Source: a virus. Taken from it: DNA of 36,831 bases. Made by a program: the position numbers and the translations under genes. Of this stretch, positions 16,284-36,831 are shown in pieces (position 1 is the stretch's first letter; each line of letters opens with the position of its first letter). Below the pieces are notes generated by a model that saw only the letters and a list, made by a program, of their open reading frames with translations, did not search any database and was not told the origin of the DNA. The stretch spans positions 1 to 36,831 of IMG/VR virus record IMGVR_UViG_3300031951_020888, one strand, 5' to 3'.

Positions 16284-16313
16284 TTCATGTCCTATCAGGT
16301 AATAAAATATCTG

Positions 16314-19467: not shown

Positions 19468-19772
19468 TCTTCTTCTTTGCCTTCTATTGAATCTTCAATC
19501 ATAGAATCATCTAGTAATTTTGCAACTCGTACGACAGCATTTTTTGATTCTATGATGTCTTTTATTAAGTTTCTCACAACGGGTTCATCAGAAAAAACCT
19601 CTAATTTAGCTTTTTGCTCGATCTTTTTGGATTGGATTTCGAGTATTTCTAAAGAATTCTCAAGAGCTTCTTGTATTTCGTCTATCTTTTCCATAAGCTC
19701 TATGTTCTTTTTTAGACTTATGGCTAGAAATGACGCAATCAAAAAAAATGATACTGAAACAATTTCTATCAT
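19464..19772 (-). CDS. Small membrane-anchored coiled-coil protein (102 aa)
   Basis: The start is the ATG at 19772, which overlaps the stop codon of the upstream glycosyltransferase by one base (TAATG) and has AGAGG about 10 nt before it. The longer frame to 19865 would lie inside that gene and is less likely. Residues 3-21 (EIVSVSFFLIASFLAISLK) form one hydrophobic segment, followed by a Glu/Lys/Ile-rich probable coiled coil (KIDEIQEALENSLEILEIQ) and an acidic C-terminus (EGKEEE). I do not recognise a family. Topology is probably one N-terminal membrane anchor with a cytoplasmic coil. It is the only clear membrane protein in the window. Confidence 0.72.
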   Translation of the reverse strand: MIEIVSVSFFLIASFLAISLKKNIELMEKIDEIQEALENSLEILEIQSKKIEQKAKLEVFSDEPVVRNLIKDIIESKNAVVRVAKLLDDSMIEDSIEGKEEE

Positions 19773-20968
19773 TACATCATGCCTCTTGTAGCTTCTTCGT
19801 ATAAAGATTTTACAGCTTCTATTGAATATTTCTTTTGTATTTTTTCTCTTAGATCTTTTGCCCATTCCTTTGGAATGGTCGAAGCTGATCTGAACTTCAT
19901 GACTTTTTTCTTAAAGTCGTCTTCTATTACATTTGCCCACTTACTCCCCTTCATAAAAATTCTGTTGTCGACTCTAGAGGGATGAATTTCAGAAAGCTTG
20001 TAGTCGATTTCGATAAATTTTCCGTGAGATAAAAAGTCCTTGTGACCCGACCAATTCGTTGCCATGACAGGAAGACCTGACGCTGCAGCTTCAAGAATTG
20101 GTAATCCGTACCCTTCTCCCTTTGTTAGAGAAACTAGACATTTAATCTTGGGATGTCTGTACAAAGAGCTAATTTCTTCGTCGGACATGTCTCCGTGAAT
20201 TAAATGAATTCTTGGGAATGGGCCTTTTCTTACTTCCTTGATCAAGGCTTCGAAAGTTTGTTGCATTAATCTTCTATCAATACAAGTATTTCTACCAGAA
20301 TTTGTCTTTATTACGATGCCTGCGTCCGGGTCCTTGGAAAAAACTTCGCACAACCACTTAACTGTATAAAAGATGTTCTTTCTTTCATTTTCTGGATTGT
20401 TCCCAGTTATTTGTCCAAAAATTAAAAAATTAAAGCTAGTAGAAAAATCTAATTCATCAACTCTAGTCTCTTTAAAATTAAGAATTGCGTTTGAATAAGC
20501 TTCGGGAATTACTTCGATACGAGTTAAAATTTTACCAGTATTGCACAAACTGCTTTTTGCATGCAAAGAAGGAACAATGATTAAAGACATCTTATTGCAA
20601 CAACTTACCCACTCAGGATTGCATCTATCTGTTTCAACAGAAGCTGTAATTCCAATGTTTGTATTGGAAAATTGAGTATCCCATTCATTTGGTAATTGAA
20701 CCTGAACGGTAGCGTCATATCTTTTGCCCGTGGGATCCACTGTCCTTTCCATAATCCTGCCGACAAATCCGTCATATAGATTTTTATCAATTAACCACGG
20801 AGTGTCACCCCAGGGAAGAGCTTGAACTTCAACGTCAAGGTCGTCTCTATCGAACAGCCATTTTGCAACTTGCCTTGTGTGTACACCGTACCCAGATTGG
20901 GTAAGAACTGGTCCCCTGAGTAAGACTTTCTTTCTTTCTGATTTGCTTGTCATTTCAAATAGATTCAT
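19772..20968 (-). CDS. GT4-type glycosyltransferase (398 aa)
   Basis: GT-B glycosyltransferase of the GT4/Glycos_transf_1 kind. The N-terminus has the acceptor-domain pattern KVLLRGPVLTQSGYGVHTRQ. The C-terminal domain has KCLVSLTKGEGYGLPILEAA with the E-x7-E motif (EGYGLPILE) that binds the donor nucleotide-sugar, followed by SGLPVMATNWSG. Known family role: transfer of a sugar from a nucleotide-sugar donor with retention; donor and acceptor cannot be read from sequence. The 4-nt overlap with the upstream GT4 gene and the 1-nt overlap with the membrane protein make it the link between the sugar cassette and the late-transcription genes. The two adjacent GT4 proteins share a 'SGxGxxTRQ/QAR' N-terminal loop and may be distant paralogues. 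Confidence 0.85.
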   Translation of the reverse strand: MNLFEMTSKSERKKVLLRGPVLTQSGYGVHTRQVAKWLFDRDDLDVEVQALPWGDTPWLIDKNLYDGFVGRIMERTVDPTGKRYDATVQVQLPNEWDTQFSNTNIGITASVETDRCNPEWVSCCNKMSLIIVPSLHAKSSLCNTGKILTRIEVIPEAYSNAILNFKETRVDELDFSTSFNFLIFGQITGNNPENERKNIFYTVKWLCEVFSKDPDAGIVIKTNSGRNTCIDRRLMQQTFEALIKEVRKGPFPRIHLIHGDMSDEEISSLYRHPKIKCLVSLTKGEGYGLPILEAAASGLPVMATNWSGHKDFLSHGKFIEIDYKLSEIHPSRVDNRIFMKGSKWANVIEDDFKKKVMKFRSASTIPKEWAKDLREKIQKKYSIEAVKSLYEEATRGMM

Positions 20969-22218
20969 AGTTCAATGGCCTTCCACAGTGGATTTTCCTT
21001 TGAATTCCACTTCTCTATTGTATCGCTTAAAGTCCTATCCCAATCATCGACGACTTTTTTAAGACTGTATTCACTTCTTGCTCTTTCCATTGCCCTTAGA
21101 CCAAGAGATTCTCGTGCTTCAGACCCCATTTCATACATCTTCATGAATGCATTCTTGACAGTTTCATGAGAGACAAAATCTTCATAGATGTAAGGAACCA
21201 TGTGATTTCCTACCATCGTTCTGACCTCTGGTTCCATTCCGATTCCGAACTGCTCACCTGTCTCTGGATCTTCAACTTGACGAGTTAAACCACCCGTCTT
21301 AATTGCGATGATGGGCTTTCCACACATCATCATTTCGAGAGTGGGGAGCCCAAAACCTTCATTGCAACTCCTATTGATGATTGTGTCACATACGTTGTAA
21401 AGGGATTTCATTTCATGAAATCCAATTCTATCTTTTGAAAAGACGATATTGTCCTTTATCTCCAGAAGGTCTATGACCTGATGAAGGTTAGTTCCTTCTT
21501 GATCCATGGGATCAGTGTGCAAAACAAGCGTTGCTTTTTTGTGTCCGTGCTTTTCTTCTAATTCATTAATAAAATCTCTCCAAGATACAAGAATATCACT
21601 TACCATTTTTCTTCTTGCATTTCTTGAAACATACAGACACGTAAAGTGGTCTATTCTTTCTTGACCCAAGAGAGCTGATTTAAACTTTAGCGTCTCTTCG
21701 CTTGGAATTGGACAAAATAGATCTTCTGGTACTGCATGAGGGATATAATTTGTTTTTTCAGGAAATCTTTCCTTTACCATCTCGTACGTTGGATAGTTAA
21801 TGCAGTTAATTAAATCTGTAGATTCATATAGAGGTCTGTTAAAATCTGGCCACGGAGGATTATCCCATAGATGCCAATAAACTATTGGGCATATTTGGTG
21901 TATCTCATCAGACATCTCCCACGTCCAGATAAAAAATCTAGGATCTGTGAAGAGAAAGACTGCGTCTGGTCTTACCTGGGCAAGAGTTTTTCTTAGAAGA
22001 GACTTATCTCCAAACCCGTTTGTTGGCTTGATGATGAAATCTGGGTTGACAACTACAGTTTCGTAGCTGTCATGCCTGATTGCGCCTCCAAAGCACTTAA
22101 AACTGTATTTGCCTGTGTTTATGAGGCCATTTATCAACCAACGTGCTTGAGTTCCAACACCGGAAGTGCTCAAGGGGTGATCCGACAAAAATAAGATAGT
22201 CTTCTTTTGATTCTGCAT
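20965..22218 (-). CDS. GT4-type glycosyltransferase (about 417 aa)
   Basis: The preferred start is the ATG at 22218 (MQNQKKTILFLSDHPL), preceded by AGGG at short spacing; a TTG six codons upstream is the alternative. N-terminal domain: ILFLSDHPLSTSGVGTQARW. C-terminal domain: NEGFGLPTLEMMMCGKPII with the GT4 E-x7-E motif (EGFGLPTLE), then KTGGLTRQVEDPETG, a long bacterial/phage form. The central YWHLWDNPPWPDFN aromatic cluster is unusual and may shape the acceptor site. It follows the nuclease gene after a 45-bp gap and overlaps the next GT4 by 4 nt. Substrate unknown. Confidence 0.85.
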   Translation of the reverse strand: MQNQKKTILFLSDHPLSTSGVGTQARWLINGLINTGKYSFKCFGGAIRHDSYETVVVNPDFIIKPTNGFGDKSLLRKTLAQVRPDAVFLFTDPRFFIWTWEMSDEIHQICPIVYWHLWDNPPWPDFNRPLYESTDLINCINYPTYEMVKERFPEKTNYIPHAVPEDLFCPIPSEETLKFKSALLGQERIDHFTCLYVSRNARRKMVSDILVSWRDFINELEEKHGHKKATLVLHTDPMDQEGTNLHQVIDLLEIKDNIVFSKDRIGFHEMKSLYNVCDTIINRSCNEGFGLPTLEMMMCGKPIIAIKTGGLTRQVEDPETGEQFGIGMEPEVRTMVGNHMVPYIYEDFVSHETVKNAFMKMYEMGSEARESLGLRAMERARSEYSLKKVVDDWDRTLSDTIEKWNSKENPLWKAIEL

Positions 22219-22263
22219 TGTCCCTATATTACCCAAAAATGAAAAGTTGTAATAAAAGTTAGA

Positions 22264-23076
22264 TCAAGTGCAGTGTTCTGTTCCCTTGTACTCACAGTAC
22301 GTACAGGAATCTCTGTTCTTCAGGGCGATTCCGCGCTTGACTGAGGTGATCATGTTGCTGACAACCTTGAGAGACTTCTTGATGGGAACATCACCCATGG
22401 AGACGGAGAAGAGTTCACAGTGTTGGCCAGGTTTCGCCGACTTCTTGAGGATGGCGAAGGCACACCTGATATCCTTGAAGGGAACCTGTGGGTTCTTCTG
22501 GTGCCAATAGTTCTTGTAGAGGGCCAATTGGGCCTTGGTCATCTCATCCGAACGCTTCTCTCGCCTCCACCCATTCGCGGAAGTCTTCCAGTCGATGATC
22601 CAGTAGAGGTCTTCCCCTCGCTTACCTTTGCACTTGATAACGCCATCGATGAAGCCTTTGAATGCGTGGGGATGACCCTCCACTGATTCATATAGGGCAT
22701 GCTCCGCATCCACAACAGTCCACTCCGGAAACTCCCTGTCAAGGAAGGCAGGAACCTCCAAGAGAATTGATTCGGACTCTGTCTTGGCAACCTTTAATGC
22801 CTTTTCTGAGAATTCTTCCTGACCACTGTGTTTGGTCCATGCCTCATCAAGAGCATCGTGACACAACTTCACGTCCATCTCGCGAGTGAGTAGGTACTTC
22901 TCGCAGGACGCGTGGACTGCTGTACCAAACTCAAGCACGGGTGAGGGCTTGAAGAAATCGATCTTCTTCACGTGGGTGAGGTGGTGTCTGTAGGAACAAT
23001 CCTTCCAGGTCTTCACCTCCGAAAAAGATACGTGCGGTTTGCCTGTTGGAAGTACTTGGAATTCAGTTTCTGACAT
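22264..23076 (-). CDS. PD-(D/E)XK nuclease, RecB/Cas4-like with probable Fe-S cysteines
   Basis: 270 residues with the RecB-family nuclease order: H55 in FGTAVHASCEKYL, D134 in FKGFIDGVIK, D152-W-K154 in IIDWKTS, and Q173/Y177 in AQLALYKNY. Four cysteines sit as in Fe-S nucleases of the AddB/Cas4 type: C27 in WKDCSYR near the N-terminus, and C258-x2-C261-x7-C269 at the extreme C-terminus. Known family role: DNA end processing or exonuclease activity in replication and recombination. There is no sugar-related function, so it looks out of place in the cassette. It is GC-richer than its neighbours (55% counted over 22381-22440) and flanked by gaps of 36 and 45 bp. No clear Shine-Dalgarno precedes the ATG, and an inverted repeat ends at the start codon. 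Confidence 0.88.
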   Translation of the reverse strand: MSETEFQVLPTGKPHVSFSEVKTWKDCSYRHHLTHVKKIDFFKPSPVLEFGTAVHASCEKYLLTREMDVKLCHDALDEAWTKHSGQEEFSEKALKVAKTESESILLEVPAFLDREFPEWTVVDAEHALYESVEGHPHAFKGFIDGVIKCKGKRGEDLYWIIDWKTSANGWRREKRSDEMTKAQLALYKNYWHQKNPQVPFKDIRCAFAILKKSAKPGQHCELFSVSMGDVPIKKSLKVVSNMITSVKRGIALKNRDSCTYCEYKGTEHCT

Positions 23077-23095
23077 GTTAGTTTTGATACTAACA
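23076..23095. repeat. Perfect 7-bp inverted repeat at nuclease start codon
   Basis: TGTTAGT, a 6-base loop (TTTGAT), then ACTAACA: a perfect hairpin or dyad in the 36-bp gap whose last stem base is the A of the nuclease ATG. It could be an operator, a translational hairpin, or a remnant of the insertion junction. There is no T-run, so it is not a convincing terminator. Confidence 0.55.
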
Positions 23096-23112
23096 CGTGA
23101 GACGGTAACAGT

Positions 23113-24027
23113 TCAAGTTCTCTTCTTTGACACGGCCCGACCTGACATCTTCTCCCAATCTCTATGCTCAGGTTGCCGCACCTCGAGGTTCTTCTCCCAG
23201 GCAGCAATTAGAATTTTTGGATCCACTCCGTTCTTCTTGGCGACACTAATCATGGCATTGATGTCCTTTGGAAAGCAGTGACCACCATACCCCCTATATC
23301 CATCTGGTCCGGGTACATTCCAGTGACTCTTTCCTACTCTTTCATCGTAAGATGCATATTCAACCACCTTGTCATAGTCGACATTGAGGCCGGAGGCATC
23401 GAGAGCCTCACAAATCTGAGCCATCTCGTTTGCAAATGCAACCTTAACTGTAAGAAAATTATTAGTTAGATACTTGATCATCTCTGCAGTTGTCGAAGAT
23501 GTCTTCACTATTGGTACGTTGCTAAAAGCTATTCTAAAAATCTGCTTGACTTGGTTGATCCAAGGGCGCGGGCCTCCAAGAATTATTCTATCTTGATTTC
23601 TCATGTCTTCTAAGGCTGTTCTCTCAGTTAAAAACTCTGGATTGAACACAACTCTTAGCTCGGAATTTTCATACTTTTTATTCCAAGATTCTGTAGATCC
23701 TGGTGGCACCGTTGACTTGACAACTGCTATCCTCTTGCCGGGTATTTCTGCTAATTGATCAAGAACTTCATTGACAATGCTTAAATCTGCAGATCCATCT
23801 TCGAACATAGGAGTCGGCAAACAAACAAAGTAAATGCCTGAAAAATCTTTCTGAGATTCTGATATATCTACTAAATCTTTGATGCTGCTTGGTCTATGTT
23901 TGCTTACTCCATTTGCAATCTTTCCAGCCTTGTCATAAGCTATAACATTAAATCCCTTTTCAGAAAAAACAGTGCTTAAAGATCCGCCTACAAATCCCTG
24001 TCCTATGACAGCAATTGTCTTGTTCAT
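23113..24027 (-). CDS. UDP-glucose 6-dehydrogenase-like enzyme, short form
   Basis: 304 residues. N-terminal NAD-binding domain: IAVIGQGFVGG (G9-x-G11-x2-G14), CLPTP, KSTVPPGST (104-112). Central domain: FNPEFLTE (about 128-135), AEMIKYLTNNF with the conserved Lys and Asn, and YGGHCFPKD with the catalytic Cys at 251. Known reaction: oxidation of UDP-glucose to UDP-glucuronate (or a related UDP/GDP-sugar) with two NAD+. The usual C-terminal UDP-binding domain of about 100 residues is missing (family members are mostly 390-450 aa), so substrate range is uncertain. Base composition changes within the gene: the N-terminal part is about 35% GC (23941-24000), the C-terminal part about 50% (23161-23220). 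Start ATG at 24027 overlaps the upstream GT2 gene by 4 nt. Confidence 0.82.
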   Translation of the reverse strand: MNKTIAVIGQGFVGGSLSTVFSEKGFNVIAYDKAGKIANGVSKHRPSSIKDLVDISESQKDFSGIYFVCLPTPMFEDGSADLSIVNEVLDQLAEIPGKRIAVVKSTVPPGSTESWNKKYENSELRVVFNPEFLTERTALEDMRNQDRIILGGPRPWINQVKQIFRIAFSNVPIVKTSSTTAEMIKYLTNNFLTVKVAFANEMAQICEALDASGLNVDYDKVVEYASYDERVGKSHWNVPGPDGYRGYGGHCFPKDINAMISVAKKNGVDPKILIAAWEKNLEVRQPEHRDWEKMSGRAVSKKRT

Positions 24028-24671
24028 TGATATTTTCCTTTAAGAAGAGTATCGTATATTTTTAATTCTTCAGAATTGTTGGTTCTGTTGTGTTCATGCA
24101 TTCTATACCTGTATAGAGATACTGGTAGATGAAAGATCTTGAACCTATTTGAAAATCTTTCAATGAGATCATGTCCTTCCCTCATTTTAAAATTTTCATC
24201 ATAGAAATTAATATCGCATAAAGATTCATATGTAAACATGATTCCACATGCAATAGGCTCTTCTTGATAAGAGCATACTTTAATAGGAGTTCCTACCTCA
24301 TTTACCTTGCTATAGTCGCAAGAGACTGCCTGGTAGGTTCTGTTTAAGTCGAGTATTAAGGATAAAGTTTGTAAAAAGTGAGAAGAAACATAGTCGTCAC
24401 TGTCCACTCTAACAAAATATCTTCCTCTTGCAGTCTTTAGTATTTTATTTAAAGACGAAGGAAGCCCTAAATTTGTAGGATTTTTTATGATTCTGACGTT
24501 AATTCTATCCTTGACAATTTCACAAACATCTTCCAAAGATTCTTCAGGATCGTCGTTTACAATGACAACTTCGAATTCATCTTTTGGTAAAGTCTGATTC
24601 TCAAGGCTTCTGAGGCAACGATATAGCCACTTTTTCTGCTTATAGCAAGAAATTCCAACAGTTACTTTCAT
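24024..24671 (-). CDS. GT2 family glycosyltransferase (215 aa)
   Basis: GT-A fold family 2 transferase. The N-terminus VTVGISCYKQKKWLYRCLRSLE is the typical nucleotide-binding start, followed by VVIVNDDPEES, then NPTNLGLPSSLNKILKTARG and the metal-binding DxD region YFVRVDSDDYV. The later REGHDL could supply the ED-type catalytic pair (E/H-D). Short for the family (usually 230-330) but the core is complete. Donor and acceptor unknown. It lies 6 bp after the 2-hydroxyacid dehydrogenase and overlaps the UDP-glucose dehydrogenase gene by 4 nt. Confidence 0.85.
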   Translation of the reverse strand: MKVTVGISCYKQKKWLYRCLRSLENQTLPKDEFEVVIVNDDPEESLEDVCEIVKDRINVRIIKNPTNLGLPSSLNKILKTARGRYFVRVDSDDYVSSHFLQTLSLILDLNRTYQAVSCDYSKVNEVGTPIKVCSYQEEPIACGIMFTYESLCDINFYDENFKMREGHDLIERFSNRFKIFHLPVSLYRYRMHEHNRTNNSEELKIYDTLLKGKYQ

Positions 24672-24677
24672 CTATTC

Positions 24678-25598
24678 TTAGACCTTTACTGAAAGATTAA
24701 TGACGGCTTCAAGCGCTTTTTTTTGGCTTTCTATGGTAGCTCCTGCCACGTGAGGGGTTATTATCACGTCTTCTCTTGCCTTTGAAAGACTTAAAAGTCT
24801 TGATTTTTTTAATTCATTTACATCTTGTTCTCCGCAAAGAACATCTGCTGCAAATCTTATAGACTTGTTTTCTATTAAGTGACAAATATACCTCTCGTCA
24901 ACAACTTCTCCTCGAGAGGTATTCACAACTATTGATCCTTCTTTTAAGTCGTCTAGAGAGCCCCACGTTATCATTCCGTAGGTCTCAGAAGTTAAATAAC
25001 AATTAATGCTTATTATGTGGCATTGACACAATTCATGTAAATTGCTAATTTTTTTGGCGTATTCGGGGGCAAGTTCTTGATTGACATAAGGGTCGTAGTA
25101 GAATATCTCAAGCCCAAAAGAGTTTGCGTACTTTGCGATCTTTTTTCCTATTCTACCTAGACCTATAATTCCAATTTTTTTGCCGTGTAATTCATTAGAT
25201 CTAAGAAAATTTTCGTTAGACTTGTCTCTCCAGCTATCGACGTTCTTTATAGAAAGACTGAATTTTCTACACAAATTCATTATGTGAATCCAGGTAAACT
25301 CTGCCGAAGCATGAATATTGTCCAACGAATCTCTATCGTCAAGCAAGCATAAAGTCTTTACGTTTCTTTCTTTTAGATAGTTCACATCTATGTGGTTCAC
25401 ACCGGTAGACGGTGTTGCAACTACCTTCAAAGACTTTATGCTAGAAAAGTGTCTTTTATCGAGAAATTTTTCTGTTCCTGGATTGACGACGAGAATTTCT
25501 GGGTCTTTGTCATCTACGACAAGACTGTGTCGTAGCAAGAGAGAAGATAAATCTTCTTTGCTGTAAAAGTCTAAGGGACACTCAAATTTTACCTTCAT
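24678..25598 (-). CDS. D-2-hydroxyacid dehydrogenase (SerA-like)
   Basis: 306 residues with the D-isomer-specific 2-hydroxyacid dehydrogenase layout. The substrate-side half contains [18 protein letters not shown]. The Rossmann half has [18 protein letters not shown] (GxGxxG) with the acidic YYDPY after it. The catalytic triad is visible as Arg in [12 protein letters not shown], Glu in LCGEQDV and His in ITPHVAGAT. Known family reaction: NAD(H)-dependent interconversion of D-2-hydroxyacids and 2-oxoacids (3-phosphoglycerate dehydrogenase, glycerate dehydrogenase and relatives). The start overlaps the cytidylyltransferase gene by 17 nt. Its role in a NeuB/NeuA neighbourhood is unclear; it may make or modify a precursor of the CMP-activated sugar acid. 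That is inference. Confidence 0.82.
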
Positions 25599-28857: not shown

Positions 28858-28858
28858 T

Positions 28859-30119: not shown

Positions 30120-30123
30120 TAAA

Positions 30124-30867
30124 TTAGCCGTTCAGAATGTTGTCACAGATTTGTTTCCACTTAGAAAAAGATATTTTCTTGTCATTTGAATAAGAATTAT
30201 CGTATTTTGGCGTTCCTCTTCCTTGATGAATAAACATTACCTTATTAGAAGAGTCAAGACACCTATCCATCCCGCAGTCTTTTCCAAGTTCTCTAAAGGG
30301 AGAATTGCAAATGTCAACAAGTGAAGAGTCGTTGTAGGTATTTCTAAATAAACGAGTTTTTAGACCGTTTTCTCTACAATAGACTGTCAAAAGGTCTGCG
30401 GAGTCGATGTGCGGGTATACAGGAAAAAGAGAAGTAGATTTAAATAAAGAAGATTCAACAAAAAGACCTGAACTGTGCAAGGCATTTACTCTATTGTCAG
30501 CTTTGTCTTCACAGACTCCTGCTAAAAAGACGTTATCTTCTATACATCTTTTTAATTCATCGAAAAAGCTGCTAGATACAACGCACGTATCGCTGTGACA
30601 AGTAAAAACATAATTGGTATTAATGTGAGACTTAGAAATTTCTAGCGCTTCGGCGTGAGCATCTGAATTTTTTAAATTAGTAGGATTTTTTAAGACTAAA
30701 CAGTCTTCAGAAGAAAATTTCTCCAAATTAAAATCAGAATTTTCTATCACTATAAACTTTAAAGAGAAGTCTTTTGTTAAGAATTTCTTAAAACTCTTGA
30801 TCATAATCTCTAGGAGATCGGGAGTTTTGTACGTAGCTGACACTACTGTTATCTCATATTGACTCAT
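30124..30867 (-). CDS. GT2-like glycosyltransferase (about 247 aa)
   Basis: The start is the ATG at 30867 (MSQYEITVVSATYKTPDLL); a TTG six codons upstream would overlap the deacetylase gene by 14 nt. The GT-A N-terminus ITVVSATYKTPDLLEIMIKS is followed by LKFIVIENSDFN, NPTNLKNSDAHAEALEISKS and the metal-site region NYVFTCHSDTCVV, where the usual DxD appears as HSDT. The C-terminal half has ALHSSGLFVESS and an RELGKDCGMD segment, and ends with HQGRGTP. It resembles rhamnosyltransferase-like GT2 proteins. It is 4 bp from the genes on both sides. Donor unknown. Confidence 0.72.
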   Translation of the reverse strand: MSQYEITVVSATYKTPDLLEIMIKSFKKFLTKDFSLKFIVIENSDFNLEKFSSEDCLVLKNPTNLKNSDAHAEALEISKSHINTNYVFTCHSDTCVVSSSFFDELKRCIEDNVFLAGVCEDKADNRVNALHSSGLFVESSLFKSTSLFPVYPHIDSADLLTVYCRENGLKTRLFRNTYNDSSLVDICNSPFRELGKDCGMDRCLDSSNKVMFIHQGRGTPKYDNSYSNDKKISFSKWKQICDNILNG

Positions 30868-30871
30868 TTTT

Positions 30872-31585
30872 TTATAATTCTTCAATAAAACAAAATTGTA
30901 TACTTTCTTCTTTTCTCAGGATCCAATTTTGAAGATCTTCCTTCATGTTTTTACTCAAATAACTTTTGTCCCATTCGCACGCATGGTAAACTATTTCAAG
31001 AGCTTCTCTTTCATAAGTTTCTGGTAGGGGCTCGAAGGGTGGACTTATGTCGTAATAGACTACCTTATTGAAGGATTCGTCTTCTTTTGCGTAAGTCTCT
31101 TTTGCATAGTCTTTTTTTGAAAGAGCAAGTGTCTTAATTCCAACGTCTGCCGCAGCTTTTATAGCACTAGGAGACATTCTCCATGCTGGTGGCCTGAAAA
31201 TCTTTTTAAACTTACTCTCTAGACCTGATTGAGATACAATTGAAAACATTGTATTGAATTTTTCAATGGCCTGATCGTATGTCAAGTATTGAAATTCATC
31301 ATTATCTGATTTCCCCGGTATTCCATGAAATAATCCGTGATAGCAAATCTCGAAATTTTTTTCAGGTAGGCTATTGATAAAGAAAATAAAATCTTGATAG
31401 TCAGAAATAACCAAGGGTCTGTCGGATATAGTTTCTCTTTTTATTGTTCGCCAATAGGCGATAGGAATAAAAAGTGTAAACTTAATATTGGGAAATTTTT
31501 CTATTAATTCAAAGCAGGAATCTAAAACTTTTATTGAAGACAAGGGATGAGGTGAGACATCATCTATGCTTATGTTAACCTTCAT
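30872..31585 (-). CDS. Polysaccharide deacetylase-like (NodB-fold) protein
   Basis: The start is the ATG at 31585 (MKVNISIDDVSPHP), which has a strong Shine-Dalgarno and an ATGA overlap with the upstream GT4 gene. The longer frame to 31648 would sit inside that gene. Motifs fit the NodB/CE4 or related DUF2334-type barrel: NISIDDV with the catalytic Asp pair, ICYHGLFHG with two metal-binding His, FRPPAWRMSPSAIKAAADVG (the RPP motif), and a later VYHACEW His. Known family role: metal-dependent removal of acetyl groups from amino sugars in glycans. No signal peptide is seen, so it would act in the cytosol, unusual for cell-wall-acting members and consistent with editing a glycan intermediate. 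Confidence 0.72.
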   Translation of the reverse strand: MKVNISIDDVSPHPLSSIKVLDSCFELIEKFPNIKFTLFIPIAYWRTIKRETISDRPLVISDYQDFIFFINSLPEKNFEICYHGLFHGIPGKSDNDEFQYLTYDQAIEKFNTMFSIVSQSGLESKFKKIFRPPAWRMSPSAIKAAADVGIKTLALSKKDYAKETYAKEDESFNKVVYYDISPPFEPLPETYEREALEIVYHACEWDKSYLSKNMKEDLQNWILRKEESIQFCFIEEL

Positions 31586-32499
31586 GCAATTTCCTCCAAG
31601 AAATCTAAGTATTCTTTTGACATATCGTGAGAATTTCTTACGTAACAAGATTCCTTGTAGAGATTTTCAAACTCTGTCTTTTTATTTTTTAGTATATCTT
31701 TTAGATTCTCAAAGTTATTGTAACTCATTCCATTATTTTGACAATATTCATTAATACTTCCTCCTTCACAATGGTAAAGAACAGGAAGACCTGCAGCCAT
31801 AGCTTCTAGTACGTGATTCGCTCCTGCCTCTTTCTTAGATGCAGTTATATAAAGATGATTTTCAGGTAAAATTCTTGAAAGACTTTGCGTATCTTGGGGT
31901 CCGAGGTAATTTGTTAGATTAACTCCTTCAGGTTTTCTTCCTACGAAAAGAAAACTGTATTCACCCTTGCTATTTATACAAAATTCATCTAATTCTTGGT
32001 ATAAGTCAAATCCTTTCATCTGGTTGTTGGACCAGTGATGAGACACTATCTTTATAGTATTGGAAAACTGAAGTTTATTTGTATTGAGAAAGAAATCTTT
32101 CAGAGGAGCATTTGCTATGACCTTGTCGTTCTTATGATTTAGACCAAGGTAATTCTTAGCCCAGAAGCTCGGATATATCAGTACGTCAGAAAGTCTAGCA
32201 GTCTGGGAAACTATGTCAAAAAGCTCAGGCTTGCCATGTGTTCCAAGATCACCTATTCTTTGAACAATTTTAGAATTACTATTATTTCTTCTCTTTAAGA
32301 GCATGTCCATGTAAGAGACATGCTGAGTAGATCTTGGATCCAAACAAAAATAAATGTCAAATGAATTAGATTTATGTAGCTCTTCTTCGAAGAAAACTTG
32401 ATGTTTCCTTCTTTGAGCTTCTTCCACTATCGCAGAAAGAACTTTAGATCCTCCACCCCAAGGTCCAGGATTAGGTCTTCTGTTAAAATAGATTTTCAT
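31582..32499 (-). CDS. GT4-type glycosyltransferase (305 aa)
   Basis: Short GT-B transferase. The N-terminus MKIYFNRRPNPGPWGGGSKV carries a Gly-rich acceptor-domain loop, VLIYPSFWAKNYLG is a mid-protein block, IKIVSHHWSNNQMKG opens the donor domain, FLFVGRKPEG follows, and the GT4 E-x7-E motif is KEAGANHVLEAMAAGLPVL (E-AGANHVL-E). It is shorter than most GT4 proteins (350-400) but has both halves. The start overlaps the upstream GT4 gene by 17 nt and the 3' end overlaps the deacetylase by 4 nt. Substrate unknown. A TATAAATA octamer lies inside it. Confidence 0.8.
   Translation of the reverse strand: MKIYFNRRPNPGPWGGGSKVLSAIVEEAQRRKHQVFFEEELHKSNSFDIYFCLDPRSTQHVSYMDMLLKRRNNSNSKIVQRIGDLGTHGKPELFDIVSQTARLSDVLIYPSFWAKNYLGLNHKNDKVIANAPLKDFFLNTNKLQFSNTIKIVSHHWSNNQMKGFDLYQELDEFCINSKGEYSFLFVGRKPEGVNLTNYLGPQDTQSLSRILPENHLYITASKKEAGANHVLEAMAAGLPVLYHCEGGSINEYCQNNGMSYNNFENLKDILKNKKTEFENLYKESCYVRNSHDMSKEYLDFLEEIA
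31590..31597 (-). promoter_or_regulatory. Strong Shine-Dalgarno fixing the deacetylase start
   Basis: Minus-strand GGAGGAAA, with GGAGG 7 nt before the ATG at 31585, lies inside the 3' end of the upstream GT4 gene. It argues strongly for this start over the longer frame. Confidence 0.85.
31971..31978 (-). promoter_or_regulatory. TATAAATA octamer, possible T4-type late promoter core
   Basis: The minus strand reads TATAAATA, the T4 late promoter consensus recognised by gp55. A gp55-like sigma factor is encoded in this window. However, it lies inside the 305-residue GT4 gene, is the only copy I found, and such an AT-rich octamer can occur by chance. It points toward the deacetylase and everything downstream of it. 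Confidence 0.2.
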
Positions 32500-33589
32500 T
32501 AAAAATTTTACTCTTTTCTTTTATGTCTTTTACCAGCTCTGGGTATATGAATTCGGGCTTGATAGACTGAGATACATGCTTGGCGGAAGTTAGATACTCG
32601 CCAGCATTATACTTGTCTAGCATTTCATAAAATTTTGAGACATCTTCCATTCTTTGAATTGTCTCACCGTTTTTACCTGGTGTTACTAGGTCCGAAACAC
32701 CAATATGAGGCATAGTAAAAATTGGTACTCCTGCTTGAATGGCCTCTATCATTGCCCTCGGTCCATATTCAAACTCGGCGGTATTTACAAAAATCTTGCT
32801 CTTTGAGAGTAATTCGATCTTTAGCTCATCGTTTGTATTAAAGTATATGTCTACATTTGAAGCTATATTTTTGACTTCTTTAAGGACGTGGTGTCCATTA
32901 TTGAGATATCCTTTATTGTCAGGGTTTCTTCCTGCTATGCAGCCCTTTAAGTTTTTAAATCTTGGATCTCTTGACAACATTCTTAAGAATTCAACTTGTC
33001 TTTTTCTTGGATCGAAAGAAGAAATCATTATCCAGTCGTAGACTTTTTCTGTCTTTTGAATTTTGTCTACGTCTAGTTCTGTAAATTTCTTGCAAGTTGT
33101 TCTCGATATTCCTATGGGAATATCTGCCGGGACTGTTTTAAATTTTGCTTGATGAGAAATTCCTTCCAAGATAGCGTAATGGTGGTATTTCTTGTCAAGA
33201 CAATTTCTAGAATTAGTACCAAGAATAACTGGATTGAACATAACGAATATGTCTTTTAATTCCCTGCATGTTTCATATTCGCTAAAACAATAACCATAAG
33301 ATCCAGGATCAGAGTTAATAATTTTTATCATATTTTCTCTATCCCAATTATTGACAATAAATTTTCCTTTTTCTACTTCTATCTTGTCTATAATTTCATC
33401 TCTGTGATTGTCGTGGGGTCCTTTTCTTGGAAAAATGACTACCTGATCTACAAGTCCAAACTTAATAAAGTTATAATACATGTATGTGTAATGCTCAGAA
33501 AGTGGGTCTGAGTTTAGCACTTGTCCACAAGTGTGGCTTGGGTGGTCCATTACGTAAGATGGAGAATTAAAAACGTATAGCTTTTTCAT
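32483..33589 (-). CDS. GT4-type glycosyltransferase (368 aa)
   Basis: The N-terminus is divergent (KLYVFNSPSYVMDHPSHTCG), with HYTYMYYNFIKFGLVDQVVIF. The donor domain is recognisable: VYDWIMISSFDPRKRQVEFL, LKGCIAGRNPDNKGYL, then KIFVNTAEFEYGPRAMIEA with E-x7-E (EYGPRAMIE) and AGVPIFTMPHIGVSDL. These are GT4 hallmarks. The gene follows the Methyltransf_24-like gene after 4 bp. Donor and acceptor unknown. Although the donor half is secure, the N-terminal half could have another acceptor specificity. Confidence 0.78.
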   Translation of the reverse strand: MKKLYVFNSPSYVMDHPSHTCGQVLNSDPLSEHYTYMYYNFIKFGLVDQVVIFPRKGPHDNHRDEIIDKIEVEKGKFIVNNWDRENMIKIINSDPGSYGYCFSEYETCRELKDIFVMFNPVILGTNSRNCLDKKYHHYAILEGISHQAKFKTVPADIPIGISRTTCKKFTELDVDKIQKTEKVYDWIMISSFDPRKRQVEFLRMLSRDPRFKNLKGCIAGRNPDNKGYLNNGHHVLKEVKNIASNVDIYFNTNDELKIELLSKSKIFVNTAEFEYGPRAMIEAIQAGVPIFTMPHIGVSDLVTPGKNGETIQRMEDVSKFYEMLDKYNAGEYLTSAKHVSQSIKPEFIYPELVKDIKEKSKIFNENLF

Positions 33590-33593
33590 GTTA

Positions 33594-34295
33594 TTAAAAC
33601 CGGGTTAGTAGAACCTGACCGTAATCTATTTCTTCATCAGAAAGCCTTCTATCGTCAAAGAAAATTCTCCTATCCATGATTATGAGTTCTTTAGATTCAT
33701 CTTCAATTTCATTGATTAATTTTGAACACTCTATGTCTTTTTGAACTTTTGAAGGCATGTGATAATCGTCAAAGAGAAGAACTTTTTGCCATTTATCTTT
33801 ACATAAATCCCAGTCTTTCTTTACACCTTCGTAAGTGTGATCTCCATCAATGTATATCATGTCAAAATTGCCAATATTTTTAAGAGCAATTTCTGATTTT
33901 TCTTGAACAAAGTTTATTCTTTGAAACCAGCTTGAAGGAAATATCTTTAATAGATTTTGTATGTGATTCTTGTCAAAGTTTGGATCTATTGTAGTTACCT
34001 TGCCATCAATACCAGCTTCTTCCATCGCTTTAACGGCACAAAAGGCGGAATATCCTCTACCAAACCCTACCTCAAGATATGAACTTACGTTATACTTTTT
34101 TATTAGTGCATGAATTAGCATGCCTCTTTCGTAATTGGGTCTATAAAAACAGCCTACCTTCTTGTAAAGGTCAGATCCAGGAGATCTAGTTTTTTTTGCT
34201 GTAAATTCTCCTATTGTGTCAAAATCTCCCAAAGACAGAGAATCAACAGGGCAGCCAAGTTGAGATAGTTTTTCTTTAATGTGGGTTATTTTCAT
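33594..34295 (-). CDS. Class I SAM methyltransferase (Methyltransf_24-like)
   Basis: 233 residues. The SAM loop is SSYLEVGFGRGYSAFCAV (E-V-G-x-G-x-G), strand 2 is GKVTTIDPNF, the conserved acidic block is FDMIYIDGDHTYEGVKKDWD, followed by LLFDDYHMPS. This YIDGDHTYEGVxxD block is typical of Methyltransf_24 (class I, cephalosporin hydroxylase/TylF-neighbour type) proteins found in glycan clusters. It probably methylates a sugar or small molecule; the acceptor is not visible. It lies 1 bp after a GT4 gene and 4 bp before another. Confidence 0.82.
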   Translation of the reverse strand: MKITHIKEKLSQLGCPVDSLSLGDFDTIGEFTAKKTRSPGSDLYKKVGCFYRPNYERGMLIHALIKKYNVSSYLEVGFGRGYSAFCAVKAMEEAGIDGKVTTIDPNFDKNHIQNLLKIFPSSWFQRINFVQEKSEIALKNIGNFDMIYIDGDHTYEGVKKDWDLCKDKWQKVLLFDDYHMPSKVQKDIECSKLINEIEDESKELIIMDRRIFFDDRRLSDEEIDYGQVLLTRF

Positions 34296-34296
34296 C

Positions 34297-35190
34297 CTAG
34301 AGAGATAATATTAAATTTCTATAAGATGAATAACCCGATGGAATCTTTAGAAGATCTACGTTAGGAACTTGAGAAATTGCTTTGGAAACATCTTCTGATA
34401 TTGAATCTTTTTCAAGAACAATCTCAGCGATTCCTACGGGCCTGGATACGACCGGTATATTGAGAAGACCGCATTCTATCAAAGACTGTGGACCGCCTTC
34501 ACACCTAGATGTAACAGGGTATAGATCAAGGCATTGATATAGCTCGTTCAAGACATTCTGAGATGGTCTATCAAAATATGTGTAATTGATGTTTAAGTCC
34601 ATCAGCTTATTAATGACATATTGTCTACGCCAACCTGCAAGGACAACATGAAGATCATCTCTTTTTATCTTCTCTAGATAGTCAACTAGAAGATCTGGGC
34701 CTTTTTCTAACTTTGGAGACAAAAGATCGGAACCTTCCGTATCTCTTTGAAATGATCCCACGCAGAAACTATCGACAGGCAGTCCATGCTTTGCTCTAAG
34801 ATCTTTCTTATCTCCTGTCCTTTTCCAAATTTTTTGATTTGCCCAATAAGGAATTACATGAACAGGTTTATCTGTTATATTTTTTACAAATTTTTCTGTT
34901 CTAAAATTTGGAACGTGGTAAACTGATGTCAAAGAATCTCTATCTAGAAATTCTTTAAGCTTATTGTTGTTAAATTTATCTTCTACGATATGATGTATCG
35001 TAGTTATAACCTTCTTTTTTGTCAAGAAATTTCTGGGTATATTGTTATAACACCAACTTGCCATCAACCAGACTACATCAGCTTCAACTATGTTGTTTGT
35101 GCTAATATCAAAATTATCTTGATACCACTCATCAACAAGCCTGTCTACTATCCAGTCTTCTGATGGTCTAAGTAGAAATACTTTGTTCAT
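34297..35190 (-). CDS. GT4-type glycosyltransferase (297 aa)
   Basis: A short GT-B protein. N-terminal half: MNKVFLLRPSEDWIVDRLVD, VVWLMASWCYNNIPRNF, KVITTIHHIVEDKF. Donor half: FCVGSFQRDTEGSD, LHVVLAGWRRQYV, then CLDLYPVTSRCEGGPQSLIE with E-x7-E (EGGPQSLIE) and NIPVVSRPVGIAEIVL. The composition of both halves is typical of compact phage and archaeal GT4 proteins. It overlaps gmd by 4 nt, so it may use the product pathway of that enzyme (GDP-linked deoxysugar); that link is inference. Confidence 0.8.
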   Translation of the reverse strand: MNKVFLLRPSEDWIVDRLVDEWYQDNFDISTNNIVEADVVWLMASWCYNNIPRNFLTKKKVITTIHHIVEDKFNNNKLKEFLDRDSLTSVYHVPNFRTEKFVKNITDKPVHVIPYWANQKIWKRTGDKKDLRAKHGLPVDSFCVGSFQRDTEGSDLLSPKLEKGPDLLVDYLEKIKRDDLHVVLAGWRRQYVINKLMDLNINYTYFDRPSQNVLNELYQCLDLYPVTSRCEGGPQSLIECGLLNIPVVSRPVGIAEIVLEKDSISEDVSKAISQVPNVDLLKIPSGYSSYRNLILSL

Positions 35191-36182
35191 AGACCAAGTG
35201 AAGCCTTTTCTCTTTTTGCAAGTTCAATGTCATGAACTACCATTTTAGTGACCAAAGACTTAAAATCAACTTTGGGAGACCACCCAAGTAAAGTTTTTGC
35301 TTTGTTGTAGTCGCCTGTCAGAGTATCAACTTCTGAAGGCCTCATGAATTTCTCGTCTATCTTTAAATATTTTTTAGGATCAAGTTGAGCAGCTTCAAAT
35401 GCTGCATTCACAAAATCATGAACAGAATGCTGCACTCCTGTTCCAATCACAAAATCTTCAGGAGATTCATGCTGTAACATTCGCCACATTGCTTCCACAT
35501 ATTCAGGAGCATAACCCCAGTCTCTCATGGCAGAAGTATTTCCCAGCTTAAGATCTTCCTGAAGACCTTCCTTAATTCTTCCAACAGCCCTCGTTATCTT
35601 TCTTGTGACGAAATTTTCTCCTCTGCGCTCAGACTCATGATTAAAAAGAATTCCGCTACATGCAAATATTCCATATGATTCTCTATAGTTCTGGGTGATG
35701 TAATGGGCATACACCTTTGCACATCCATATGGGCTTCTAGGGTAGAACGGCGTAGATTCATTTTGTGGAGTTTCTCTCACTTTGCCAAACATTTCGCTGG
35801 ATGATGCTTGATAAAATTTACAATTAATTTTTGATCTTCTAATTGCGTCGAGAAGATTAAGTGCACCTAAAGCAGTTACTTCAGAAGTATTAACAGGCTG
35901 ATCGAAAGAAAGACCTACGTGACTTTGAGCTGCAAGATTATAAACTTCATCAGGCCCTATGTCTTCTAGCAGTCCTCTCATACCAGACGCGTCCATTAAA
36001 TCTCCGTGGTGGACAACTAGCTTGTTGGTCAACATAGCATTCTTGAGATGACCCCACCTATCTGGTGTGAATTGTGTTGACTGTCTTATAAGACCATGTA
36101 CTTCGTATCCTTTGTCTATTAAAAGATCTACAAGATAGCTTCCATCTTGACCTGTCACACCTGTTATAAATGCCTTTTTCAT
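35187..36182 (-). CDS. gmd: GDP-mannose 4,6-dehydratase
   Basis: The start is the ATG at 36182, overlapping the preceding stop by one base (TGATG); a TTG one codon upstream is possible but less likely. Short-chain dehydrogenase fold: ITGVTGQDGSYLVDLLIDKG (NADP loop, residues 6-25), HGDLMD, YNLAAQSHVGLSFDQP, the catalytic SSSEMFG (127-133), and the Tyr-x3-Lys pair in SPYGCAKVYAH (Y152, K156), then FNHESERRGENFVTRK, NTSAMRDWGYAPEYVEAMW. These are the GMD-specific blocks. Reaction: GDP-D-mannose to GDP-4-keto-6-deoxy-D-mannose, the precursor of GDP-fucose, rhamnose, perosamine and others. The enzyme that takes the next step is not recognised in the window. At 331 aa it is near full length. Confidence 0.93.
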   Translation of the reverse strand: MKKAFITGVTGQDGSYLVDLLIDKGYEVHGLIRQSTQFTPDRWGHLKNAMLTNKLVVHHGDLMDASGMRGLLEDIGPDEVYNLAAQSHVGLSFDQPVNTSEVTALGALNLLDAIRRSKINCKFYQASSSEMFGKVRETPQNESTPFYPRSPYGCAKVYAHYITQNYRESYGIFACSGILFNHESERRGENFVTRKITRAVGRIKEGLQEDLKLGNTSAMRDWGYAPEYVEAMWRMLQHESPEDFVIGTGVQHSVHDFVNAAFEAAQLDPKKYLKIDEKFMRPSEVDTLTGDYNKAKTLLGWSPKVDFKSLVTKMVVHDIELAKREKASLGL

Positions 36183-36541
36183 CAAGACCTCTTCTTAATT
36201 TCGTGAACAAATATTGGAGAAAAAGCAGTACCATTAAACATCGTTGCTAGCATCGCCAATTCTTTGGTTGTAATATTTTCAAGCTTTGCTCTCTTGTCAA
36301 AGATGTTTGGATCTAGTTCTTCTCTTCCGTTTATGTTTACGGAATCATAATACATCTGTGCTATTAGATTAACACCTTCATTAGAAATGGGAATGTTTGA
36401 CTCTTGAAATACGTCTACTAGACAATTGAAGATATCTGTATAAATTTGAATACACGTAGAAGAATTTAAATTACTCTCTTTGTAGGACTCTAGCTTAGAA
36501 ACAAGTAGCTTAGATAAAGAATCGTGAATTTGCTTATTCAT
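36182..36541 (-). CDS. Small protein of unknown function (119 aa)
   Basis: I do not recognise a family. The sequence is mostly helical, with no signal peptide, membrane segment or cysteine motif. SLSKLLVSKLESYKESNL, CIQIYTDIFNCLVDVF and GVNLIAQMYYDSVNI form probable amphipathic helices. The last third (ENITTKELAMLATMFNGTAF) contains a possible short helix-turn before a basic end (HEIKKRS). Its only context is its place between two nucleotide-sugar dehydratases, with overlaps of 8 nt (upstream) and 1 nt (downstream). It might be a phage-specific accessory protein unrelated to sugar metabolism. Confidence 0.7.
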   Translation of the reverse strand: MNKQIHDSLSKLLVSKLESYKESNLNSSTCIQIYTDIFNCLVDVFQESNIPISNEGVNLIAQMYYDSVNINGREELDPNIFDKRAKLENITTKELAMLATMFNGTAFSPIFVHEIKKRS

Positions 36542-36831
36542 TTGTCATTCCATTTATTGTTTTTTCAAGTCCGTCATCAAAAGATGTGTAATTAGTTTTT
36601 ATTATTCTTGAAAGCTTTTTTGAAGATATGCTGTACCGTTTGTCATGTCCTGGTCTATCTTGTGAAGTAACTACAATATCTTCAAATTTAATAGTTTTGT
36701 CTTTCTTTTTGTTGTAAGCGTTAAGAACTTTTCTTAATACTTCGATATTCTTCAAAGAGATGCCGGAGCTCAAGTTATACGTGTTATTCCAGACAACAGA
36801 TTCTTTATTTAGAATAGATCTTACAATTTTT
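36534..36831 (-). CDS. dTDP-glucose 4,6-dehydratase-like, C-terminal part (N-terminus outside window)
   Basis: An open frame enters from the right edge and ends with TAA at 36534. Visible sequence: NTYNLSSGISLKNIEVLRKV, matching the 'YN(I/L)GxGxxxxN' segment of RmlB-type SDR enzymes, then SQDRPGHDKRYSISSKKL, the diagnostic 'DRPGHDRRYxID' block that binds the substrate nucleotide sugar. It is followed by the typical SFDDGLEKTI helix and a C-terminal tail. Known reaction for RmlB: dTDP-glucose to dTDP-4-keto-6-deoxyglucose. The catalytic residues lie outside the window, so activity cannot be checked. The TTG in YNLSS is not the start. Confidence 0.8.
   Translation of the reverse strand, partial: KIVRSILNKESVVWNNTYNLSSGISLKNIEVLRKVLNAYNKKKDKTIKFEDIVVTSQDRPGHDKRYSISSKKLSRIIKTNYTSFDDGLEKTINGMTNE

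Follow-up and report, generated by a model that had tools for sequence, protein, structure and literature searches.

Gene content of the island

The window analysed here (36,831 nt) is the complete IMG/VR record IMGVR_UViG_3300031951_020888 and is a fragment of a T4-like phage, recognizable by its baseplate wedge genes and a gp55-type sigma factor gene. The gp6-like and gp25-like wedge genes occupy 14412..16781, and the gp55-like late sigma factor gene (18682..19467; phrog_234, E 1e-5; no Pfam match) marks the end of the glycan genes; these and all other window features given below lie on the minus strand. The glycan-synthesis cassette proposed in the initial annotation proved real in family scans and is larger than the window. 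In a longer contig identical to the window, G016, which carries the entire island, it continues for ~5.7 kb beyond the window edge and then stops, for a total of ~22.8 kb; the added stretch encodes a 643-aa transferase as well as proteins of the RmlA, RmlD, GT4, and GT2 types. In both sequences the glycan genes run in the same direction as the baseplate genes, and in G016 island and baseplate are joined in a run of 38 successive same-strand genes (G016:19533-59831) whose largest gap is 55 bases. This run and the order GT4b, GT4a, gp55-type, retained in 62 of 63 loci (found via GT4b, this phage among them), both go beyond chance. The island frames are intact and overlapping, and no late-promoter motif was found.

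Occurrence of the genes was compared across 10 contigs picked for having both island ends. Among the nucleotide-sugar enzymes, the GDP-mannose 4,6-dehydratase Gmd (35187..36185) exceeds its family cut-off (TIGR01472, 445 bits vs 415) and is present in 5 of the 10 contigs, its own included. The UGDH-type nucleotide-sugar dehydrogenase (23113..24027; 9/10 contigs) is also above cut-off for TIGR03026, at positions 2-297 of 413, the C-terminal domain being unmatched in this alignment. The RmlB-type dTDP-glucose 4,6-dehydratase matches TIGR01181 (E 2e-12) as claimed, but the window, ending inside the gene, holds just its C-terminal 98 aa (36534..36831); the complete gene encodes 311 aa at G016:24635-25570.

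The NeuB-type nonulosonate synthase (26292..27011; PF03102, 119 bits vs a 22.1 cut-off), likewise as first annotated, is a 239-aa protein without an SAF domain. In an alignment of 11 viruses, a 20-residue segment and the motif EKHFTL are invariant or nearly so, and we take these conserved segments to have catalytic roles. PDB alignments stop at position 272-274 in chains of ~350 residues, presumably ahead of the SAF domain, and the C-terminal SAF domain of NeuB synthases was not found in the phage protein by these alignments. The 290-residue synthetase chain 6ncs also matches, so short NeuB forms may not be unique. The adjacent gene (25582..26295) encodes a CMP-nonulosonate cytidylyltransferase of the NeuA/PseF type, consistent with the initial assignment; it is above cut-off for PF02348 and nearest to PseF (TIGR03584, 161.8 bits, below the 205.7 cut-off). 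A 2-hydroxyacid dehydrogenase (24678..25598; PF02826) and a clear GT2 glycosyltransferase, GT2a (24024..24671; PF00535), complete a four-gene module whose order is retained in 12 of 15 other loci. This SAF-less module is common to distant phages, and no close cellular match was found. Among 50,697 phage records, NeuB matches three and NeuA one, at 26-38% identity. The neighboring 378-aa protein (27008..28144) shows weak NeuC/Epimerase_2 similarity (E 1.4e-4 in Pfam and 2.6e-5 in NCBIfam, both below cut-off), which makes it a candidate nonulosonate transferase or epimerase; searches with two sequence patterns found no relative in cellular genomes.

The five GT4 glycosyltransferases reported initially were recovered, one of them below Pfam cut-offs, whereas of the two reported GT2 proteins one is clear and the second was assigned by reading only. 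GT4a (19772..20968; PF00534) is present in 62 of 63 loci. GT4b (20965..22236), found in 63 viral loci with its own contigs included, has a soluble GT-B fold (AF2 model, pLDDT 85.7); in sequence it comes closest, among PDB entries, to chlorovirus NY-2A B736L (E 5.8e-10), with bacterial GT4s close behind (3.7e-9), and the fold is generic and uninformative on the acceptor. GT4d (34297..35190; 5/10 contigs) and GT4e (32483..33589; only this phage among the 10 contigs) match Pfam GT4, GT4f (31582..32499; 3/10 contigs) does so weakly, and the GT2b-like protein (30124..30885; 1/10 contigs) has no Pfam match at E 0.01. The island glycosyltransferases are without predicted membrane helices.

Three of the four methyltransferases first listed match Pfam families: Methyltransf_24 (33594..34295; 3/10 contigs), Methyltransf_23 (29490..30119; 1/10 contigs), and a TylF-type O-methyltransferase (28123..28857). 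The fourth (28859..29497; 2/10 contigs) is methyltransferase-like by reading only, with no Pfam match at E 0.01. The deacetylase-like protein corresponds to DUF2334 (30872..31648; Pfam; 2/10 contigs). Missing from the initial list, as were the 2-hydroxyacid dehydrogenase and the 378-aa protein, are a PD-(D/E)XK nuclease (22264..23076; PF12705), a conserved neighbor in 10/10 contigs that is probably not a glycan enzyme, and a 119-aa protein (36182..36541) conserved in the islands of 10/10 contigs, whose modelled structure has five helices and resembles no fold in the PDB at E<=0.001.

Search for export functions

The initial annotation saw no flippase, polymerase, or priming transferase, and this holds in G016, just outside the window, as well, where their presence had been named initially as a refuting result; none of these marks of a Wzx/Wzy-dependent locus was encountered in the records scanned. 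Wzx-type flippases (PF01943) were found neither in the window nor in 24 records including G016 nor in 36 records, most of which are fragments; the control for this search was positive in 13 of 14 genomes. Priming transferases (PF02397) were found in 0 of 25 records, a set that leaves the largest relatives outside. For a multi-spanning polymerase, absence was judged by hydropathy alone: none of 615 ORFs exceeds 2 predicted helices in a simple scan that undercounts helices, and that in E. coli K-12 gives 9 for flippases and 6 and 8 for polymerases. Applied to six large relatives, one of them 369 kb with a 110-base terminal repeat, the same kind of scan revealed no membrane protein resembling a flippase or polymerase. 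These six have 16 ORFs with at least 3 predicted helices; four very long ORFs (1,249 to 1,807 aa) have 6 to 9 and the other ORFs at most 4. Two of the large relatives, G026 and G034, encode half-size EamA membrane proteins, which could serve lipid-linked transport.

As initially stated, the only predicted transmembrane protein of the window is a small single-TM anchor of 133 aa (or 102 aa; 19464..19865), with a relative in 48 of 63 loci. By reading, G049 keeps a similar small TM protein beside gp55 although GT4a is no longer next to it, so the anchor is probably not part of the glycan system.

Conserved core and variable interior

Comparison of the 10 contigs showed that a fixed core flanks a variable interior on both sides, an organization that is new here. 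The core consists of GT4a, GT4b, the 643-aa transferase, and the 119-aa protein, usually with GT2c, GT4c, and the UGDH-type enzyme; most interior genes vary between phages. Identity of GT4a and GT4b tracks that of gp6 (r 0.87, 1,410 pairs, and r 0.85, 1,358 pairs), as does that of gp25, gp55-like, p116, and p509 (r 0.83-0.85). NeuB shows no such relation (r 0.09, only 14 pairs), but some interior genes are linked to gp6 (Gmd, r 0.73, 51 pairs; RmlB, r 1.00, 9 pairs). In a set selected by gp6 and not by the transferases, both GT4a and GT4b were present in 17/17 loci with gp6 identity of at least 60% and at least 6.8 kb upstream; the association drops to 0/9 within the flank at gp6 identities of 30-38%. 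With gp6 identities of 31-32%, G049 and G052 also carry the core. Relative to G018, identities are uneven: TylF reaches 87%, against 75% for gp6 and 52% for the 378-aa protein next to it, a pattern that suggests recombination.

Comparison with known systems

Sugar clusters of phages are already known and the island is a new variant of them, so the initial description of a largely undescribed system was too strong. Jumbo cyanophages such as P-SSM2 carry LPS-type clusters with epimerases and several transferases that are polymorphic between relatives (PMC7824862, in excerpt), moraphages have four core transferase families (PMC12619734, in excerpt), and jumbo phage XacN1 encodes two transferases, proteomics having detected at least two glycoproteins (PMC5852040, in excerpt). 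The island resembles the cyanophage clusters in its NAD-dependent epimerase/dehydratases, its several transferases, and its polymorphism, and Gmd has relatives of ~50-53% identity in S-SKS1, S-CAM7, and ACG-2014f. It differs in that no phage record matched by NeuB or NeuA bears a cyanophage name and that the 10 records matched by each of GT4a and GT4b include no Synechococcus or Prochlorococcus phages. XacN1 is not among the latter records either, an absence that is meaningful only if the collection holds this phage.

In chloroviruses, virus-encoded transferases and nucleotide-sugar enzymes including GMD glycosylate the capsid protein (PBCV-1 Vp54) in the cytoplasm; two transferases occur in 43/43 viruses, the decorations are each virus's signature, and the function of NY-2A B736L remains to be elucidated (PMC5408694, in excerpt). 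The island is likewise virus-encoded, with core transferases in all 10 contigs holding both ends and other genes variable. Homology is claimed only at the level of the GT4 fold, and the island, known here from genes alone, differs in belonging to a phage with a bacterial host, a T4-like virion, and NeuB/NeuA. Caulobacter FlmG, which in the cytoplasm transfers a NeuB-made nonulosonate onto flagellin before export and assembly (PMC7591256, in excerpt), offers a further parallel to the scheme proposed below, in which a structural protein would be glycosylated in the cytoplasm before assembly.

Possible acceptors of the glycan

The phage carries gene types for nucleotide sugars, non-membrane glycosyltransferases, and methyltransferases, adjoining late-sigma and baseplate genes. 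With a fixed core, exchangeable parts, and no exporter seen, it may sugar-coat its own particles. The explanation that we favor, with about even confidence, is that an acceptor specific to the phage, probably a virion protein, is glycosylated in the cytosol, as in chloroviruses. RmlA/B/D-type, Gmd, UGDH-type, and NeuB/NeuA enzymes of the phage would supply the nucleotide sugars, the core transferases would, before virion assembly, build up an invariant inner glycan step by step on the acceptor (most likely a protein of the virion surface), and the variable interior enzymes would attach strain-specific outer sugars. A glycan built on a cytosolic acceptor would need no membrane carrier, flippase, or polymerase, and the presumed benefit is a masked or altered particle surface. 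Adjacency to virion genes alone does not show function, and an obvious acceptor candidate, a Gly-X-Tyr tail-fibre tract, was not found in 8 of 19 sequence sets scanned, including G026, G034, G049, and G052.

The strongest alternative, a serious one that we rate as somewhat less probable, is remodelling of the host surface, suggested initially as hand-over to the host's export system: the glycan would be assembled on LPS or capsule chains already present, or on the lipid carrier of the host, and exported by host machinery, blocking superinfection or altering the cell. Such a product is the published view for cyanophage clusters (PMC7824862, PMC9602691, and PMC5332604, in excerpts). It would suit the similarity of the interior enzymes to O-antigen genes, the half-size EamA proteins, the GT29-like and sulfotransferase-like proteins beside NeuB in G049 (both barely above Pfam cut-offs), and the hypervariable interior, since hypervariability equally suits surface-antigen change. 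That no priming transferase was found in 25 records, a set without the largest relatives, and no flippase- or polymerase-like protein in the six large relatives speaks against it, but weakly, because a phage using the host exporter needs no such proteins of its own. A glycan on a phage acceptor fits better with a core retained across phages of GC 0.39 to 0.56, presumably infecting different hosts, and the island's position next to baseplate genes also tells against a host-surface product.

We consider it improbable that the interior serves as a repository of acquired sugar genes without a single product, or that it makes a soluble glycoside. Its low GC in G016 (0.348 vs 0.380 for the whole contig; the difference is not distinctive in G026) and the mosaic identities in G018 would agree with cargo, whereas the intact overlapping frames and the conserved order of the NeuB module argue for use.

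Some phage transferases act on DNA. Such activities are on record (PMC12619734, in excerpt), TS/hydroxymethylase-family genes occur in 4 of 23 records, and the G028 gene has CMP 5-hydroxymethylase as its closest match (E 9e-43 vs 2e-16 for the best thymidylate synthase). Glycosylation of hydroxymethylated bases of the phage genome by the island, as suggested initially, is nevertheless unlikely, because in three large relatives this gene and an epimerase sit elsewhere: in G026 and G028 it lies a long way from the island, beside an epimerase and a protein of 434-477 aa, and in G032 the epimerase is within 3 kb of it, in what looks like a separate DNA locus (the fourth record, G025, is outside this comparison). 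PHROGs labels these proteins thymidylate synthases, so a DNA role even of that locus is only putative. The mark of DNA hypermodification, a hydroxymethylase with transferases, is absent from G016, which holds the whole island and has no PF00303 match.

Returning to a cytosolic virion glycan, we tentatively extend it to a T4-like lineage of large phages (up to 369 kb) whose virions would bear a two-layer, cytosol-made glycan: an inner part from the baseplate-linked core transferases and a serotype-like outer layer swapped between phages, tipped in some members by a sialic-acid-like sugar from the virus-confined SAF-less NeuB/NeuA module. If true, this would be a bacterial-virus counterpart to chlorovirus capsid glycosylation. 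With the virion as acceptor, bacterial viruses would have independently evolved autonomous, export-free glycosylation of the chlorovirus type, in which the core is fixed and the antigens can be swapped. It could also account for the 'LPS' genes of large phages that have no means of export, and the annotation of such genes would change.

The question is experimentally accessible now, since relatives of the core pair exist in two cultured phages, immuto and Mel-JY01. In both, the PD-(D/E)XK, GT4b, and GT4a relatives are grouped together, which favors the virion reading, but their distance from gp6 tells against it, GT4a lying ~30 kb away in immuto and ~77 kb away in Mel-JY01. In Mel-JY01, an IMP-dehydrogenase gene lies between the nuclease and GT4b, and GT4b is annotated as two pieces.

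Extent and gene content of the glycan island

The window, 36,831 bases long, is a complete IMG/VR virus record, so that flanking DNA could not be read from the record itself. It carries baseplate wedge genes of the gp6 and gp25 types (14412-16781), a gene for a tail fibre and one for a late sigma factor of gp55 type, and it is therefore a fragment of a T4-like phage. A longer contig, G016 (59,833 bases; locus L020), is 100% identical to window positions 2271-36831 over 34,561 bases and extends 25,272 bases beyond the upper end of the window (G016 position = 62104 minus window position). Family scans substantially upheld the gene list of the initial annotation for the minus-strand cassette at 19772-36831, with two of the genes assigned by reading only. 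Followed into G016, the cassette gains full-length genes of the RmlB, RmlD and RmlA types, one GT4, one GT2 and a protein of 643 aa that contains a GT2 domain; the N-terminal half of the latter is GT4-like by reading only and has no Pfam match. The cassette ends at G016:19533, beyond which genes lie on the opposite strand, giving an island of ~22.8 kb (G016:19533-42332). Because the 38 script-called genes from G016:19533 to the contig end share a single strand with gaps of at most 55 bases, the island, sigma factor and baseplate genes form one block.

The UGDH-type dehydrogenase (23113-24027) aligns only to family positions 2-297 of 413, and NeuB (26292-27011; 239 aa) has no SAF domain, so both proteins lack their C-terminal parts. 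Candidate regulatory signals were set aside: the late promoter TATAAATA occurred in 2 of 431 upstream regions, and sigma-70 patterns (57 in the island versus 54.8 in shuffles) and terminator patterns (16 versus 12.0) were near chance. The Rfam search gave no match and no tRNA genes were found.

A conserved core and a variable interior

Relatives of GT4b (20965-22236) were found in 63 viral loci, counting the contigs of this phage. GT4a (19772-20968) follows GT4b in 62 of the 63, with a gp55-type gene after both in the same number; the sole exception to this order is a 4.3-kb contig. Since these loci had been selected through GT4b, loci selected through gp6 served as a check. Both GT4 genes were present in all 17 such loci whose gp6 reached 60% identity and that had 6.8 kb or more upstream; at 39-59% identity and at least 4 kb upstream, GT4a was found in 3 of 4 and GT4b in 1 of 4, and at 30-38% neither occurred within the flank (0/9). 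Two contigs with gp6 31-32% identical, G049 and G052, hold relatives of GT4a, GT4b, GT2c, GT4c, the 643-aa protein and the UGDH-type dehydrogenase in one island of different order. A single 701-aa frame in G049 (L360:4974-7079) spans both GT4a-type and 643-aa-type matches, a hint that these two transferases may act in sequence.

We compared 10 contigs holding both island ends, this phage included, counting as relatives proteins of at least 30% identity. The set was derived from 12 contigs by dropping the near-duplicate partners G005, G011 and G009, as well as G020, which stops short of the far end, and G024 (gp6 32%, core GT4 not found), and by adding G026, G034 and G028; G032, whose island is split across the record ends, was left out. 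GT4a, the PD-(D/E)XK nuclease (22264-23076) and a 119-aa protein were present in all 10, as were GT4b and the 643-aa protein, for which 10/10 is a consequence of contig selection. The UGDH-type gene was found in 9 contigs and GT2c and GT4c in 8 each. Gmd and GT4d occurred in 5 of 10, and 16 other interior families in 1 to 3 each. The 119-aa five-helix protein (36182-36541) is thus kept despite changing neighbours; no PDB fold match at E<=0.001 was found for it. Other relatives carry different sugar genes in their interiors (L085, G001:40643-46869; L218:3344-7690 in G026): by reading, both encode a PseB-like dehydratase, an aminotransferase and an acetyltransferase, and G001 additionally a UDP-galactopyranose-mutase-like protein.

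Pairwise identities of the core transferases correlated with those of gp6 (r 0.87 for GT4a, 0.85 for GT4b), as did those of gp25, the gp55-like protein, p116 and p509 (r 0.83-0.85), the nuclease (r 0.83), the UGDH-type protein (r 0.78) and Gmd (r 0.73; 51 pairs), these values being descriptive, as pairs are non-independent and some loci near-duplicates. For RmlB (r 1.00, 9 pairs) and NeuB (r 0.09, 14 pairs) the pairs were few.

Island DNA of G052 had no megablast match among phages, and the 643-aa protein had none in the phage collection. Relatives of the core occur in two cultured phages with complete genomes, Flavobacterium phage immuto, whose host strain is LMO8, and Microcystis phage Mel-JY01, where those of the nuclease, GT4b and GT4a lie together at 26-35% identity. 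In immuto the trio leads into a run of sugar genes that includes a GT2, transaminases and an epimerase, the whole stretch lying at 48-60 kb. The trio of Mel-JY01 precedes genes for transferases and methyltransferases; here an IMP-dehydrogenase gene separates the nuclease from GT4b, which is annotated as two pieces.

The nonulosonate module

NeuB relatives were found in 15 other viral loci, 12 of which keep the order NeuB, NeuA (25582-26295), 2-hydroxyacid dehydrogenase (24678-25598) and GT2a (24024-24671). Locus L191 has the module without NeuA, L199 and L200 have only distant NeuB and NeuA, and L195 and L201 are apparently near-duplicates. The module proteins of G049 and G052 are 56-70% identical, versus 31-32% for gp6, which points to transfer between phages. 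Among the matches listed by a cellular scan with two short patterns, the closest NeuB was 43% identical (an Omnitrophota contig) and the next 34%; the best 80 cellular loci among these matches held a NeuA relative in 32 cases, the dehydrogenase in 2, GT2a in 2 and the 378-aa protein (27008-28144) in none. As a lead from these matches, the module may be confined to viruses. A phage collection of 50,697 records gave 3 NeuB matches and 1 NeuA match, at 26-38% identity.

The viral pattern search for the 378-aa protein returned its own contig and two viral relatives only, and direct comparison added those in L187 and L189; the pattern search found no cellular relative, and the one PDB match was chance-like. 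In G049, NeuA and NeuB are separated by a GT29-type sialyltransferase-like protein, and NeuB adjoins a sulfotransferase-like protein (L359:18771-19601 and L360:281-1231), both barely above Pfam cut-offs. The former (25.9 bits, cut-off 23) matches over residues 19-88 only, has no PHROGs match, and finds sialyltransferases as its best, weak PDB match (E 0.8).

Export machinery

No Wzx-type flippase was found in the window, in 24 related contigs or in 36 further records, the control being positive in 13 of 14 genomes in every run. No PF02397 priming transferase was found in 25 records (control positive in 10 of 14). Under a simple hydropathy scan, in which flippases, polymerases and the priming enzyme of E. 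coli K-12 gave 9, 9, 8, 6 and 3 helices, none of 615 ORFs from 13 partly overlapping contigs, window included, had more than two predicted helices. The 102-aa anchor was judged unrelated to the glycan system.

Six of the 10 virus records above 130 kb were also scanned, among them G026 (369,475 bases), which is probably complete given its exact 110-base terminal repeat. They hold 16 ORFs with at least three helices (G026, 5; G032, 4; G034, 3; G028, 2; G049, 2; G052, 0). Four of these, with 6 to 9 helices, are very long (1,249-1,807 aa) and resemble tape-measure proteins. The remainder have 3 or 4 helices each and include two proteins from G026 (399 and 315 aa), one from G028 (644 aa) and one from G049 (315 aa; phosphate-permease-like by reading). 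Half-size EamA transporters were detected in G026 (158325-158741; L209:18325-18741; 58.9 bits) and G034 (5400-5813; L238:5400-5813; 40.2 bits) against a cut-off of 28.2, with a second G034 match below it. Both are distant from the glycan island; such a protein may assist lipid-linked sugar movement. The two cultured phages each encode an unassigned 4-helix protein (immuto, 381 aa; Mel-JY01, 377 aa).

Possible acceptors of the glycan

With soluble donors, soluble transferases and no carrier, the simplest mechanism would add sugars one step at a time, in the cytosol, to an acceptor common to all these phages. Divergence of the core GT4s parallels that of the baseplate gene, and these transferases persist in phages whose GC spans 0.39 to 0.56; a phage acceptor accounts for this better than a host glycan would. 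We infer that the acceptor would be a phage component, most likely a virion protein.

Virion glycosylation is known in mycobacteriophages, work cited in PMC12619734. Cases similar to the present island have been described for moraphages (PMC12619734), phage XacN1 (PMC5852040), cyanophage S-SCSM1 (PMC9602691) and a marine virus that encodes Gmd and NeuA (PMC5332604). The proposed mechanism would work like chlorovirus capsid glycosylation, in which two transferases are present in all viruses and the decorations are virus-specific (PMC5408694, PMC7826918), and like cytoplasmic flagellin glycosylation by Caulobacter FlmG (PMC7591256). Neither the core-plus-interior arrangement nor the NeuB module in phages was found among the literature matches listed, whose coverage lies mostly outside subscription journals.

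Threonines of a collagen-like tail fibre were rejected as a universal acceptor. A Gly-X-Tyr tract occurs in the window and several relatives and was not found in G005, G008, G018, G024, G026, G034, G049 and G052, some of them fragments that may stop before the fibre gene. The tail-fibre protein of the window (2-3607) has 18 such triplets, 9 with Ser/Thr in third place, and its relative in G010 has 418. Nor does the GT4b fold point to an acceptor, being that of a generic soluble GT4.

The main rival to a virion protein is that phage sugars change the host surface, the printed view for cyanophages (PMC7824862). DNA is a less likely target, as a TS/hydroxymethylase-family gene and nearby epimerase exist in G026, G028 and G032 but sit far from the island (L211:1786-5493, L255:7252-11531 and G032:138780-144576 in L227-L228, respectively), the G028 protein of this separate locus being closest to CMP 5-hydroxymethylase. 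The PF00303 match was not accepted as proof of DNA modification: PHROGs placed the three proteins with thymidylate synthases, and PDB placed the one tested nearer CMP 5-hydroxymethylase. This second locus is possibly a separate DNA base-modification system. In G026 and G028 it also encodes a 434-477 aa protein without Pfam match; by reading, thymidine-kinase-like genes lie near the locus, together with deaminase-like genes in G028 and G032.
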